Of a stretch of DNA of 64,000 nucleotides, positions 11,584-57,115 are shown one piece after another. Within the stretch, counting starts at the first letter, position 1. Each line of letters starts with the position of its first letter. The stretch comes from Chloroflexota bacterium (GTDB lineage: Bacteria > Chloroflexota > Dehalococcoidia > Bin125), in NCBI GenBank assembly GCA_028875225.1, contig JAPPFB010000020.1, positions 186,001 through 250,000 on the forward strand, written 5' to 3'. A model generated the notes under the pieces. It did no database searches. It was not told where the DNA came from and was given only the letters and a program-made list of their open reading frames with translations. Made by a program: the position numbers and the translations under genes.

Positions 11584-11954
11584 AGGAATGCGTAGAGCAG
11601 GCCCAACACGCTGACGGCGACGGCGAGTGCCGTGAGGAAGATCGCTGTGTGACGATTGGCCCGTCGCTCGGCGTCGGCCTCGGCCTGAGCGAATCGCGCA
11701 TCGAACCGCGCCTCCATATTTTCGAATCTGGCGTCAATTCTCTCGAATCTAGCGTCAACCCTGTCGAACCTGGCATCGACTCGGTCGAACCTGGCATCCA
11801 CTCGCTGCTCCATTGTCTCAAGATGTTCCTGTGACACGACATTCTCGCTCAACTCTTCGTCCAATGATGTCGCCAGCTCCAGGCCCTTCGATTCGTCGGT
11901 GACCTCAGCCCGAACGAAGGCGTCTCTGACCCGACGGACGTTGAAGATCGCCAC
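11580..11954 (-). CDS. Small coiled-coil protein with C-terminal membrane anchor
   Basis: 124 residues. A head of about 45 residues is followed by a heptad coiled coil with a repeated ARF-x-R-[VI]-D unit (RVDARFDRVDARFDRVDARF, then ERIDARFENMEARFDARF). One C-terminal membrane helix ends the chain (TAIFLTALAVAVSVLGLLYAFL). This layout resembles the DUF1640/CCDC90 group. It is one of five proteins in this window with the same head, coil and tail-anchor plan (see 17448, 30759, 48782, 49142). The start is GTG at 11954 behind a strong GGGGGAGG. Function unknown; a self-associating membrane protein is inferred. Confidence 0.75.
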   Translation of the reverse strand: MAIFNVRRVRDAFVRAEVTDESKGLELATSLDEELSENVVSQEHLETMEQRVDARFDRVDARFDRVDARFERIDARFENMEARFDARFAQAEADAERRANRHTAIFLTALAVAVSVLGLLYAFL

Positions 11955-17330: not shown

Positions 17331-17403
17331 ACGCGGCTCAGCGTATCACCCGCCAGGGTCGATGCGCCGTTGCGGGGGTGCTCGACCGCCAACAACCAGA
17401 GTT

Positions 17404-17412
17404 TGGTATAGT
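17404..17412 (+). promoter_or_regulatory. Extended -10 promoter element before the 17448 gene
   Basis: TGGTATAGT fits the extended -10 form TG-N-TATAAT with one mismatch in the hexamer. The expected start would be near 17419, giving a leader of about 29 bases. The same TG-N-TA pattern precedes the genes at 48782, 49142 and 56513. Confidence 0.55.
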
Positions 17413-17419
17413 GAACAAG

Positions 17420-17432
17420 TGTACGATGTACA
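17420..17432. promoter_or_regulatory. Operator-like palindrome TGTAC-GAT-GTACA
   Basis: A perfect inverted repeat with 5-bp arms and a 3-bp centre, placed 7 bp after the extended -10 and therefore over the likely transcription start. A site here would block initiation, the usual place for a repressor. A related TGTAC-TG-GTACA palindrome overlaps the -10 of the paralogous gene at 49142. Confidence 0.45.
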
Positions 17433-17447
17433 TGCTATCGTAAGACT

Positions 17448-17711
17448 ATGGCGCTGCGAAAAATGGAACTCCACAACATCCTGGTCTCTCGATTACGGGC
17501 GCAATCCGACGCGTCCGAAGAGATTTGCAATCTGATCGGCGAGCAAACAGACGGACTCGTCACTGAGCGCACATTTCGCGAAGAGATGGCACGATTTCGC
17601 GCTGAGTACCTGGGGGAGATGAACCGCCACCTCAGGTGGCTCCTGACTGCTGGAATCGCATTGGGCGGAGCCATGATTGCATTGCTGACTTTAATCGTGA
17701 CTCGCCTCTGA
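17448..17711 (+). CDS. Small tail-anchored helical protein of the dispersed coiled-coil family
   Basis: 87 residues. A short helical head (MALRKMELHNILVSRLRAQS) is followed by an acidic helix, the segment GLVTERTFREEMARFRAEYL and a C-terminal membrane helix (WLLTAGIALGGAMIALLTLIVT). It matches the head-coil-anchor plan of the other four small proteins, but with a much shorter coil. There is no clear ribosome site before ATG 17448. An extended -10 and a palindrome lie in the 117-bp gap after the tRNA. Function unknown. Confidence 0.65.
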   Translation: MALRKMELHNILVSRLRAQSDASEEICNLIGEQTDGLVTERTFREEMARFRAEYLGEMNRHLRWLLTAGIALGGAMIALLTLIVTRL

Positions 17712-47073: not shown

Positions 47074-48717
47074 GTGGGCGGGACGGCGCTGGAACCTGGT
47101 GATGTCCTGTCGGCGGCGCGCGCCGGGTTTGCTGGGGCGCCGCTTCAGGACTCGCCGGGTGACGTGGCCGCGCGCGCCAGACTGTGGCGCGACGGTCTCG
47201 TCATCGCCCAAGCCGACGCATTGGCGGCCGACGGGCTATCGGCGGCTCAGGCAGCCGGGGCGGCGCTACAGGCCGCCCTGGGCGATGACAGCGATCAGCC
47301 TGGCGATGCGCTGGGCATCGAAGTGGAAGCCGAACGCGAGTCGCGAACCCCTGAGGGTCTGATCGGCCTAATCCAGACACCGCTACCGGGTCGGCACGGG
47401 CTCATTCTTCGCGATGGAAAACGGATCGCGCGCGGATGGCCATTCGACGCTTTGCGGACGGACGGCCGCACTGCGGCGTGGGTCAAGCAATTGAACAGAG
47501 AGGTCCGGCGTCCCGGCGCTCGGCTGGCGCCCAGCACTTCGGTTGAGGTGTTCACCACGGTCGAGGCGCTCGGCCCGGTCGCGCCAACGGACGGCGAGCG
47601 AATTCCCGCTCGATCCGGCGGCTTTCGGCTGGTCCAAATGGAGGAAGTGCTGCCGGACCGATTGTCGGGTTCGGCGCTGCAGGCCGCGGCCTGGCTGCTG
47701 CGGCATCAACGGCCCGACGGCTCGTTCTCGTATGAGTTCGCACCGCCGGGCGCTGGCAACGAGGGCGGCTGGACGCCGTACGACCAGCTCGTGCGACAGT
47801 GCGGTTGCGCCTGGGCCATTGCGATGGTGGCGCGACTGTCGCGGGATCGAACGATCGGCGAGGCGGCCGCGGCGGCGATCAGCGGCATCCTCGAGCGTCA
47901 CCTGCGGCGCGACGGACCGGGCAGGCTGTTCTACTTGCGAGACATGTACGGCGAGGCCAAGCTGGGCGCTCCGCCGCTGCTGTTGCTCGCGATTACGGAG
48001 TTGGGTCCGTCGTTGCGCATTCCTCGAGAGACCGTGGACCAGCTCACGGCTTCGCTGTTGGCGGTGCAGGCGGCAGACGGTCACTTCGGCACGAGGGCCC
48101 GCGGCATGGAGCTCGAGGGCTCAGAGACCTACTACGCCGGCCAGATCGTGTTGGCGCTGGCCAGGTTGTTCGGCGTCCGCAAGCGACCCCGACTCCGCTC
48201 AGCGGTGCAACGGGCCTTGAAGCACTACCAGGAGCGCTGGCAGGACGAAGACGAGCGCGACCTCTCCTTCACGACCTGGATGATCCAGGCGTGCGATCAA
48301 TGGCACGCGCTGGAGGGCGATGAACTGGCTCAGGACTACGCCTACGAGATGGCGGACTGGGCGCTTGAGGAACAGCACGGCGAGGACTTTGAGAACCCGC
48401 TCTGGGTCGGCGCGTTCCAGAACACGCCGGGGATTGGGACGGCGGCCTACAGCGAGGGGATTGCGAGCGCGCTGTCGATTGCGCAGCGGTCGGGCGATGA
48501 AGATCGGACGAATCGGTATCGGTCGGCGCTGTTACTGAGCATGCGATTCCTGTTGTCACTCTCGCTGGACGGACCCGAGCACACGTTGGTCGGCGGGACT
48601 GAACATGTCGGCGCCGTTCGGTCGGCGCTGCATCGCTCGGGGCTGCGCTGCGACAACGCGCAGCACTACCTGATGTCGATGCTGCGCGCCCGCGCCTTGT
48701 GCTGGGATAGTGAATAG
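47074..48717 (+). CDS. Protein with a C-terminal terpenoid-cyclase-like alpha/alpha barrel
   Basis: 547 residues. The GTG start directly follows the stop of the lactonase. Residues about 190-545 show repeated LLRHQRPDGSFSYEF, LLAVQAADGHFGTRA and related Q-x-x-D-G-x-x-F/W units, the mark of squalene/prenyl cyclase-like alpha/alpha toroids. Cyclase catalytic motif DxDD is not visible, so it may bind substrate without cyclising it. The N-terminal 180 residues (LSAARAGFAGAPLQDSPGDV and RTDGRTAAWVKQLNREVR) are not assignable. The unspaced junction with the lactonase suggests a linked function. Confidence 0.7.
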   Translation: MGGTALEPGDVLSAARAGFAGAPLQDSPGDVAARARLWRDGLVIAQADALAADGLSAAQAAGAALQAALGDDSDQPGDALGIEVEAERESRTPEGLIGLIQTPLPGRHGLILRDGKRIARGWPFDALRTDGRTAAWVKQLNREVRRPGARLAPSTSVEVFTTVEALGPVAPTDGERIPARSGGFRLVQMEEVLPDRLSGSALQAAAWLLRHQRPDGSFSYEFAPPGAGNEGGWTPYDQLVRQCGCAWAIAMVARLSRDRTIGEAAAAAISGILERHLRRDGPGRLFYLRDMYGEAKLGAPPLLLLAITELGPSLRIPRETVDQLTASLLAVQAADGHFGTRARGMELEGSETYYAGQIVLALARLFGVRKRPRLRSAVQRALKHYQERWQDEDERDLSFTTWMIQACDQWHALEGDELAQDYAYEMADWALEEQHGEDFENPLWVGAFQNTPGIGTAAYSEGIASALSIAQRSGDEDRTNRYRSALLLSMRFLLSLSLDGPEHTLVGGTEHVGAVRSALHRSGLRCDNAQHYLMSMLRARALCWDSE

Positions 48718-48722
48718 TCGCA

Positions 48723-48738
48723 GTTCTCTATTGAGAAC
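48723..48738. promoter_or_regulatory. Operator-like palindrome GTTCTC-TATT-GAGAAC
   Basis: A perfect 6+6-bp inverted repeat with a 4-bp centre, exactly 8 bp before the extended -10 of the 48782 gene. The same palindrome with a different centre (CAAA) lies at the same distance before the 49142 gene, so it is probably a regulator-binding site or part of the promoter. Confidence 0.6.
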
Positions 48739-48746
48739 CCCCGTGC

Positions 48747-48755
48747 TGATATCAT
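48747..48755 (+). promoter_or_regulatory. Extended -10 promoter TGATATCAT before the 48782 gene
   Basis: TG-A-TATCAT, one mismatch from the TATAAT hexamer, 8 bp after the GTTCTC palindrome and about 26 bp before the start codon. Confidence 0.55.
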
Positions 48756-48781
48756 TGAGGGGAGCATCCGGAGGCATCCGA

Positions 48782-49075
48782 GTGGCAGTTCGCATTGACA
48801 GGCCAAGGTTCAGGGCACTCTTCGGCCGATTGGCTCTGCCCAACGAACGCGCCGAAGAGATTGTTGATGCAATTGAAGACACCTTCGACGAGAGCCTCAA
48901 CGATGTGGCCACAAACACGTATGTCGACCTCAAGGTGTCGGGGGCAGTGGCGGACTTGAAGGCATATCTCGCTGATCGCGAAGCTCGGATGACCCTGAAT
49001 CTGCTGATCTGGCTGGGTATCGTCCTCTCCGCAATCGGGGTCGCTACCGCGGTGCTGATTGCCGTGCTGGGATAG
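48782..49075 (+). CDS. Small tail-anchored protein (paralogue of the next gene)
   Basis: 97 residues from GTG 48782 (VAVRIDRPRFRALFGRLALP). Helical head (ERAEEIVDAIEDTFDESLND), a short coil (VADLKAYLADREARM) and a C-terminal membrane helix (LIWLGIVLSAIGVATAVLIA). The head aligns with that of 49142 (IRIDRP, VDA-x-EDT, LAT/VAT). GGAG lies upstream. It has its own promoter with a palindrome. Function unknown; one of five such proteins in this window. Confidence 0.7.
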   Translation: MAVRIDRPRFRALFGRLALPNERAEEIVDAIEDTFDESLNDVATNTYVDLKVSGAVADLKAYLADREARMTLNLLIWLGIVLSAIGVATAVLIAVLG

Positions 49076-49087
49076 CGAAAAGCCGGG

Positions 49088-49103
49088 GTTCTCCAAAGAG
49101 AAC
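49088..49103. promoter_or_regulatory. Operator-like palindrome GTTCTC-CAAA-GAGAAC
   Basis: A perfect 6+6-bp palindrome, exactly 8 bp before the extended -10 of the 49142 gene, the same geometry as at 48723. The flanks (GGGG before, AG after) also make it an approximate inverted copy of the first site. Confidence 0.6.
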
Positions 49104-49106
49104 AGC

Positions 49107-49120
49107 TGTACTGGTACAAT
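49107..49120 (+). promoter_or_regulatory. Extended -10 TGGTACAAT overlapped by palindrome TGTAC-TG-GTACA
   Basis: TGTAC-TG-GTACA (49107-49118) is a perfect 5+5 inverted repeat overlapping the extended -10 TG-G-TACAAT (49112-49120). A related TGTAC...GTACA palindrome lies at 17420 before another member of the same protein family. Confidence 0.5.
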
Positions 49121-49141: not shown

Positions 49142-49435
49142 GTGTTGGCGATTCGCATCGACCGTCCGCTATTTCGGGACATCTTCGCCCGGATGGAGAT
49201 TCCGCAGGCTCCGGCGGATGATTTCGTCGACGCGGTTGAGGACACGGTCAATGAGGGGCGTGACGAACTCGCAACGAAGGACGATCTGCTTGCAATGGAA
49301 GTCAGACTCAGAGCAGATGCCGCAGAACGCGAGGCACGGATTCTGCAGAATCAGCTGGGCATGGTTGGCGTGATGTTGGGGGCCCTGGCGATTGCGACGG
49401 GCATCATCATCGCGGTCGTCACACTCTCGGCCTAA
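49142..49435 (+). CDS. Small tail-anchored protein (paralogue of 48782)
   Basis: 97 residues from GTG 49142. Head VLAIRIDRPLFRDIFARMEI then PADDFVDAVEDTVNEGRDEL matches the preceding gene; the coil DDLLAMEVRLRADAAEREAR and C-terminal membrane helix (LGMVGVMLGALAIATGIIIA) follow. The stop overlaps the convergent LLM oxidoreductase gene by 4 bp. It is a tandem duplicate of 48782 that has kept its own matching promoter. Function unknown. Confidence 0.7.
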   Translation: MLAIRIDRPLFRDIFARMEIPQAPADDFVDAVEDTVNEGRDELATKDDLLAMEVRLRADAAEREARILQNQLGMVGVMLGALAIATGIIIAVVTLSA

Positions 49436-54567: not shown

Positions 54568-54738
54568 GTTCAGTGAGTGAGCGAACGTTGGGCGACGCGC
54601 AACGCTGCGCCTGGGCTCGTCTGCGGCGCCCTTTGTACGGCTTGTTGTCATTCACATACGCGGTGCACATACGTTCTGATCATACGCCACTCAGTGGAAG
54701 TCGGCCGACGAAGTCGTGTGAAACGTCCCGCAGAGCGC

Positions 54739-56423: not shown

Positions 56424-56483
56424 GCCTCTATGTTCGCATGGAGACAGGGATTCCTCTTCATTGAGGGCACATGTGTTCGTATC

Positions 56484-56512: not shown

Positions 56513-57115
56513 GTGTCGACCACCGAGCAACTGACAGCAATCGTCGAAAGAGTACGGGAGGCGACGAAGTCGCTGAGCGGTGACGAGTTCCGATTGCGTG
56601 AGATTGCATTCGAGAAGTTGCTCGAGCACGAACTGTCCAACGGAGGTCCTTCGAATGGTGCAGCGACCTTGGCGCCATTGGAAACGCCAGCGGACACTGA
56701 TTCCCTTGATACCAGCTATTCGACTCCGGAGATGCGGGCCGAAGCGGTCGCACGATATTTCGGCATCAGCCAAGAAGACGCCTTCGATTTGTTTGACCTG
56801 AGCAGCGATGAGCCGGTCCTTCAGATCCAATCCAGCAAGCTGGATACCTCAGTGGCCGGAGCAGTTCGGGAGATCGCCCTTTTGGTCTGTGGAGCACGTA
56901 CGGCCCTGGGCATTGAGACTGGCTCGAAGGACATCCGGGAACCGGCAGATCAATACAAGAGATTTGACAGCAACTTCAACAAGCATTTGACCGACTTCGA
57001 TCTCATCGCTGTACGAGGTAAGTCACGATCACCTAATCGTCTCGTGCGAATGCGCGTGATTGGCGCGGAAGCGGCCCGGGCGCTGGCACAGCGGCTGGTT
57101 TCGAATGGCGGCTGA
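56513..57115 (+). CDS. Partner protein of a TIGR02391 HEPN gene, function unknown
   Basis: 200 residues from GTG 56513 with GGGAGA upstream. The N-terminal part is helical (EQLTAIVERVREATKSLSGD, LREIAFEKLLEHELSNGG); residues 65-105 contain MRAEAVARYFGISQEDAFDL, which may be a helix-turn-helix. The rest has VAGAVREIALLVCGARTALG and a basic end. It overlaps the HEPN gene by 11 bp. Lower GC than the flanking lipid genes suggests transfer. Likely an antitoxin, sensor or DNA-binding partner; no family recognised. Confidence 0.6.
   Translation: MSTTEQLTAIVERVREATKSLSGDEFRLREIAFEKLLEHELSNGGPSNGAATLAPLETPADTDSLDTSYSTPEMRAEAVARYFGISQEDAFDLFDLSSDEPVLQIQSSKLDTSVAGAVREIALLVCGARTALGIETGSKDIREPADQYKRFDSNFNKHLTDFDLIAVRGKSRSPNRLVRMRVIGAEAARALAQRLVSNGG

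Follow-up and report, generated by a model that had tools for sequence, protein, structure and literature searches.

The window (the whole 64-kb stretch of DNA analysed) contains a gene for a 547-residue protein, followed on the same strand by two small genes for tail-anchored proteins, each of which is preceded by a perfect palindrome and an extended -10 element. The open reading frame listed for copy 1 begins too early, at 48710; the start homologous to that of copy 2 lies at 48782. The features of this region are as follows.

47074-48717, + strand: upstream gene, encoding 547 aa, a toroid with weak resemblance to prenyltransferases
48723-48738, + strand: palindrome 1, GTTCTCTATTGAGAAC, with its left arm GTTC at 48723-48726
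48735-48746, + strand: LexA-box-like dyad 1, GAAC-CCCC-GTGC, sharing its GAAC with palindrome 1
48747-48755, + strand: extended -10 element TGATATCAT (TGnTAnnAT), 8 bp past palindrome 1
48782-49075, + strand: first tail-anchored protein gene (copy 1), 97 aa, GTG start
49088-49103, + strand: palindrome 2, GTTCTCCAAAGAGAAC, with its left arm GTTC at 49088-49091
49100-49111, + strand: LexA-box-like dyad 2, GAAC-AGCT-GTAC, sharing its GAAC with palindrome 2
49112-49120, + strand: extended -10 element TGGTACAAT (TGnTAnnAT), 8 bp past palindrome 2
49145-49435, + strand: second tail-anchored protein gene (copy 2), 96 aa, starting with TTG or possibly with the GTG at 49142

The palindrome, the eight intervening bases and the TGnTAnnAT element are placed and spaced at both sites exactly as a first-pass annotation of this DNA had described them, and its description of the downstream genes as duplicated and tail-anchored was borne out as well; the two proteins are 43% identical (approximately 60% for the coding DNA), and each consists of a helical body with a single C-terminal hydrophobic helix. 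Both extended -10 elements are located about 25-35 bp 5' of the start codons, a distance plausible for a sigma-70 promoter, and the -35 region is poor in both cases. Each palindrome is preceded, at an equal distance, by TGCTGGGATAGYGAA, the sequence with which the upstream gene ends; judged from this arrangement, the tandem duplication is real and took with it the promoter and the final bases of that gene, so that the two promoters would be homologous by descent.

In a pattern search of the whole 3.22-Mb genome, the exact palindrome GTTCTC-N4-GAGAAC was found only twice, both times in the window, and the idea that it marks a genome-wide regulon was rejected on this ground. Bare copies of the palindrome elsewhere in the genus (eight loci were read) are situated within long open frames and have no -10 element, which told against such a regulon as well.

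The tail-anchored protein family

Homologues of the two proteins were gathered from 61 related genomes and from genome contigs; the named close relatives of the genome are the Chloroflexota MAGs SB0664_bin_20 and RHO3_bin_68. Five members of the family are encoded in the window. An AlphaFold model (pLDDT 84.5) places helices at residues 7-16, 21-40 and 45-95. Sequence and fold searches of Pfam, PHROGs and the PDB returned nothing firm as a known family, the fold search against the PDB giving no match. The proteins resemble CCDC90-like/DUF1640 coiled-coil proteins in having a helical N-terminal part and a long helix that ends in a membrane anchor; the CCDC90-like profile (PF07798) matched 1 of 18 family members, at E=0.0063, short of the cut-off. 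Identity with a phage holin (phrog_689) was considered and rejected, the best E-value being 0.022, in two family members, and a tblastn search with copy 2 against 50,697 phage records gave no match, on which ground a phage origin was set aside.

Nine promoters of the family were aligned: those of the two window copies, three orthologues (L020, L021 and L022), a pair of paralogues on contig C5 of the same genome and another pair (L036 and L044) from genome G010. The alignment runs without gaps as far as the -10 element, and the orthologous promoters in it are not independent. Common to all is a layout of GTTY-N8-GAAC-N4-GTNC followed after 3-4 bp by TAnnAT; GAAC is kept in 9/9 and GTTY in 8/9, the latter across four promoter lineages, and a GT lies eight bases from the start of GAAC in 9/9, with C as the fourth base of this second half in 7/9 (one paralogue, L006/L036, has GTTG). 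The three orthologues keep GAAC-N4-GT(A/G)C directly 5' of the -10 element. Among the nine, the arms of the palindrome differ in their two inner bases.

When the 15 genomes of the genus were searched with GTTCN8GAACN4GTN5-6TANNNT, there were five matches, every one of them 5' of a family gene, and none for the reversed control. The looser pattern GTTCN8GAACN10-13TANNNT matched four times in the genome itself, three times 5' of family genes; the fourth match (C26:62793) precedes a hydrolase-like open reading frame, has no GTNC and was taken as chance. Because the layout also precedes distant paralogues from a second contig, and is restricted to the family in the 15 genomes, these comparisons support its being a real conserved promoter element, more than what a tandem duplication left behind. 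The palindrome as such is not the conserved unit; only the window copies and orthologue L021 have arms that match over all six bases. The refuting condition named in the first-pass annotation, that other genes lack the motif, gave a mixed result: unrelated genes do not have the full layout, but unlinked family members do.

LexA-type boxes in the genus and at the family promoters

The LexA motif of Gram-positive bacteria is GAAC-N4-GTTC (PMC3323433), and ChIP-seq of LexA in Streptomyces venezuelae gave the consensus tCGAAC-N4-GNNCGa, in which one half is strict and GNNC is accepted as the second (PMC9380542). Searches of non-subscription literature turned up no LexA motif described for Chloroflexota. 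The genome carries one intact lexA gene, encoding a LexA DNA-binding domain and an S24 peptidase domain, and the genus has conserved a GAAC-N4-GTTC site close to lexA: most lexA promoters have GAAC-N4-GTTC, and those of G003, G004 and G011 have GTAC-N4-GTTC. The recA promoters of 15/15 genus genomes have GCAC-N4-GTTCG at the -10 position. GNAC-N4-GTTC, conserved in both promoters, would accordingly appear to be the LexA motif of the genus. As GTAC and GTGC both occur in the lexA and recA boxes, the second halves of copy 2 (GTAC) and copy 1 (GTGC) would be natural variants of the box. The plain GAAC-N4-GTTC occurs at 40 places in the genome, mostly inside genes, versus 24 for the reversed pattern.

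Upstream of recA there is a further element, TAGAAC-RTNYGC, directly before the -35 hexamer TTGACA and with an invariant GAAC in 15/15 cases (L066 plus 14 genomes of the genus). LexA may bind there too, more weakly, or the element may belong to another regulator.

The dyad overlapping each palindrome had been spotted in the sequence before any matrix scoring, and the matrix was trained only on lexA and recA boxes of the genus, with the family genes excluded. With the joint 16-bp matrix, copy 2 ranked 2 and copy 1 ranked 4 among 63,981 window positions; with the 12-bp core alone, copy 2 ranked 3 and copy 1 about 16 (tail 2.5e-4). Across four training sets, among them lexA-only, recA-only and other-family lexA matrices, copy 2 took ranks 1-5 and copy 1 ranks 5-119, copy 1 being the weakest site and falling to 55-119 with the lexA-only matrices. 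When the matrix was slid over the nine promoters, one register alone was positive (mean +11.1, minimum +7.9); the next best of 60 offsets, at -8, was below zero (-5.0). The window contains 641 GAAC words, and GT.C follows at box distance in only 8, both sites included. Copy 2 clearly, and copy 1 moderately, thus scores like the lexA/recA motif.

A third site, which was not known when the LexA idea was formed, came to light when the window was scanned for the layout.

17401-17424, + strand: third site, GTTTGGTATAGTGAACAAGTGTAC, a GTTY-N8-GAAC-N4-GTNC match
17404-17412, + strand: its extended -10 element, TGGTATAGT, with the box adjoining directly 3'
17413-17424, + strand: LexA-box-like GAAC-AAGT-GTAC, directly past TGGTATAGT
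17448-17711, + strand: family gene, 87 aa, with a C-terminal membrane helix (family-profile hmmsearch E=3.9e-8)

It brings the matches to GTTY-N8-GAAC-N4-GTNC in the 64 kb to three, all before family members, whereas the frequencies of the separate parts would lead one to expect about 0.08. As here, the box directly follows the -10 element in certain lexA promoters from other families.

Among 34 upstream regions of family genes, 13 had a site scoring at least 7.8, versus 3.4% of random segments, and about 60% of the members are without a LexA-like box; in the genome itself the box is present in five of the eight members scored and absent from three. These proportions suggest that SOS control would be common in the family but not universal. 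Two window members with starts near 11954 and 31142 (minus strand) have no LexA-like box, the former being among the eight scored.

Several other LexA-like sites were observed. Within the window, GCAC-ATGT-GTTC at 56467-56478 is followed by an extended -10 element, TGGTAGCAT, and by a gene for a 200-aa protein (56513-57115, + strand). The top matrix match of the window is GCAC-ATAC-GTTC, at 54665-54676; it is intergenic, and the surrounding stretch (TTCTGTTCGGCTCTGTTCGG...) apparently accompanies further boxes of this type in the genome (L050, L062) and is possibly an interspersed repeat. Elsewhere in the genome, GTTTTCTATAGTGAACGCACGTTCG (L086; G000:C27:171056, minus strand) comprises a -10 element and then a LexA-like box, approximately 70 bp before an rplI-like (ribosomal protein L9) gene. 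GAAC-N4-GTTC precedes genes that read like phage small-terminase proteins at L059 (G000:C12:35944) and L084 (G000:C27:50592), from which prophages may also be under LexA. At L090 (G000:C28:82589, minus strand), GAACACACGTTC-ATG-TACCAT has a box-to-(-10) spacing equal to that of the family promoters and lies 187 bp before a gene for a coiled-coil protein with a C-terminal membrane helix, which does not clearly belong to the tail-anchored family.

Proposed regulation and competing readings

We consider it probable, from the layout and the box scores, that both palindrome sites are SOS-type promoters, in which an extended -10 element is repressed by LexA and released upon DNA damage. Each small gene would be driven by a sigma-70-type extended -10 element (TGnTAnnAT) with a poor -35, a combination that would let RNA polymerase initiate unaided by an activator, with transcripts predicted to begin near 48762 and 49127. 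Bound to GAAC-N4-GTNC, 3 bp 5' of the -10 hexamer, a LexA dimer would occupy about -27 to -16 and block RNA polymerase; following DNA damage, RecA would trigger the self-cleavage of LexA, the promoter would be freed and the tail-anchored proteins made. The visible palindrome would then be composed of the LexA half-site GAAC and a mirrored GTTY twelve bases upstream. This left arm does not fit LexA spacing with GAAC, and LexA binding alone would not explain its conservation; it may allow a second LexA dimer to bind more weakly, as the good half of a weak second box (the register at offset -8 being second best, though below zero), or it may be contacted by some other factor. We infer LexA binding, repression and damage induction, as well as a role for the left arm, from these features.

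The conserved left arm also suits a different reading, in which the 16-bp GTTY-N8-GAAC is the operator of some other activator or repressor dedicated to the family and the LexA match is secondary or coincidental. GTTY is retained in all but one of the aligned promoters, and the full layout occurs only before the tail-anchored family and is absent from the lexA and recA promoters. Against this, GAAC alone is invariant and is the part held in common with the LexA dyad; a LexA matrix trained elsewhere still picks the palindrome sites; member L041 has a LexA-like box but no left arm; and the left GTTT of the 17401 site shares bases with the extended -10 element (TTGGTATAGT), so that it may have another cause there. 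We regard a dedicated operator of this kind as unlikely. The first-pass annotation had favoured an activator or a divergent sigma factor bound to the palindrome at the -35 position, and the palindrome does lie over the -35 region, with constant spacing to a good extended -10 element, the true -35 being poor. An extended -10 element needs no -35, however, no regulon of such sites was seen outside the tail-anchored family, and the right half of the palindrome is accounted for by the LexA match. Such a factor is not needed, as GAAC and GTNC match the lexA/recA box of the genus and so predict repression, and we hold it to be very unlikely.

Two further readings were considered. That the identical arms are a functionless remnant of the tandem duplication is in keeping with a duplicated block that takes in the 3' tail of the upstream gene, but the arms and the -10 element were kept while coding and protein identity fell to the levels given above, and the layout also precedes the contig C5 paralogues, where the upstream flank is unrelated; this we judge extremely improbable. 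It is scarcely credible that the palindrome is an RNA hairpin that terminates or attenuates transcription where the upstream genes end: stop codons do lie just before it, and folding of the 16-mers gives -5 to -6.5 kcal/mol, but no U-run follows, and L006 and L022 have lost the stem, which is weak in L008, with the DNA motif kept.

As LexA-repressed promoters, the sites would compare closely with the GAAC-N4-GTTC operators of Bacillus, Mycobacterium and Streptomyces, sharing the half-site, the spacing and a location within the core promoter; that GAAC is strict and the other half looser likewise recalls the Streptomyces consensus (PMC9380542). They differ from those operators in that the second half is GTAC or GTGC instead of GTTC, in that binding here is predicted, and in the extra mirrored GTTY twelve bases upstream, which makes three half-sites, GTTY-N8-GAAC-N4-GTNC, instead of the usual two.

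YneA, SosA and SidA are SOS-induced small single-pass membrane proteins that inhibit division. The proteins described here are similarly small, with one membrane helix and a LexA-type box, but their helix is C-terminal, after a helical stalk, there are many copies per genome, and the majority lack the box; no relationship to YneA, SosA or SidA was found in profile libraries. By analogy, the tail-anchored proteins might be damage-induced membrane effectors, for example in a division checkpoint, which is a guess. It is a tentative and somewhat doubtful proposal that this lineage-specific, repeatedly duplicated family serves uncultured Chloroflexota as the membrane branch of their response to DNA damage, under a LexA operator with three alternating half-sites.

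The type of regulation is already known; the third half-site and the protein family are possibly new. The GNAC-N4-GTTC motif could be used to map the SOS response in a group known to date through its assembled genomes, and the placing of an expanding family of small membrane proteins of uncultured Chloroflexota under the DNA-damage repressor would be a testable claim.
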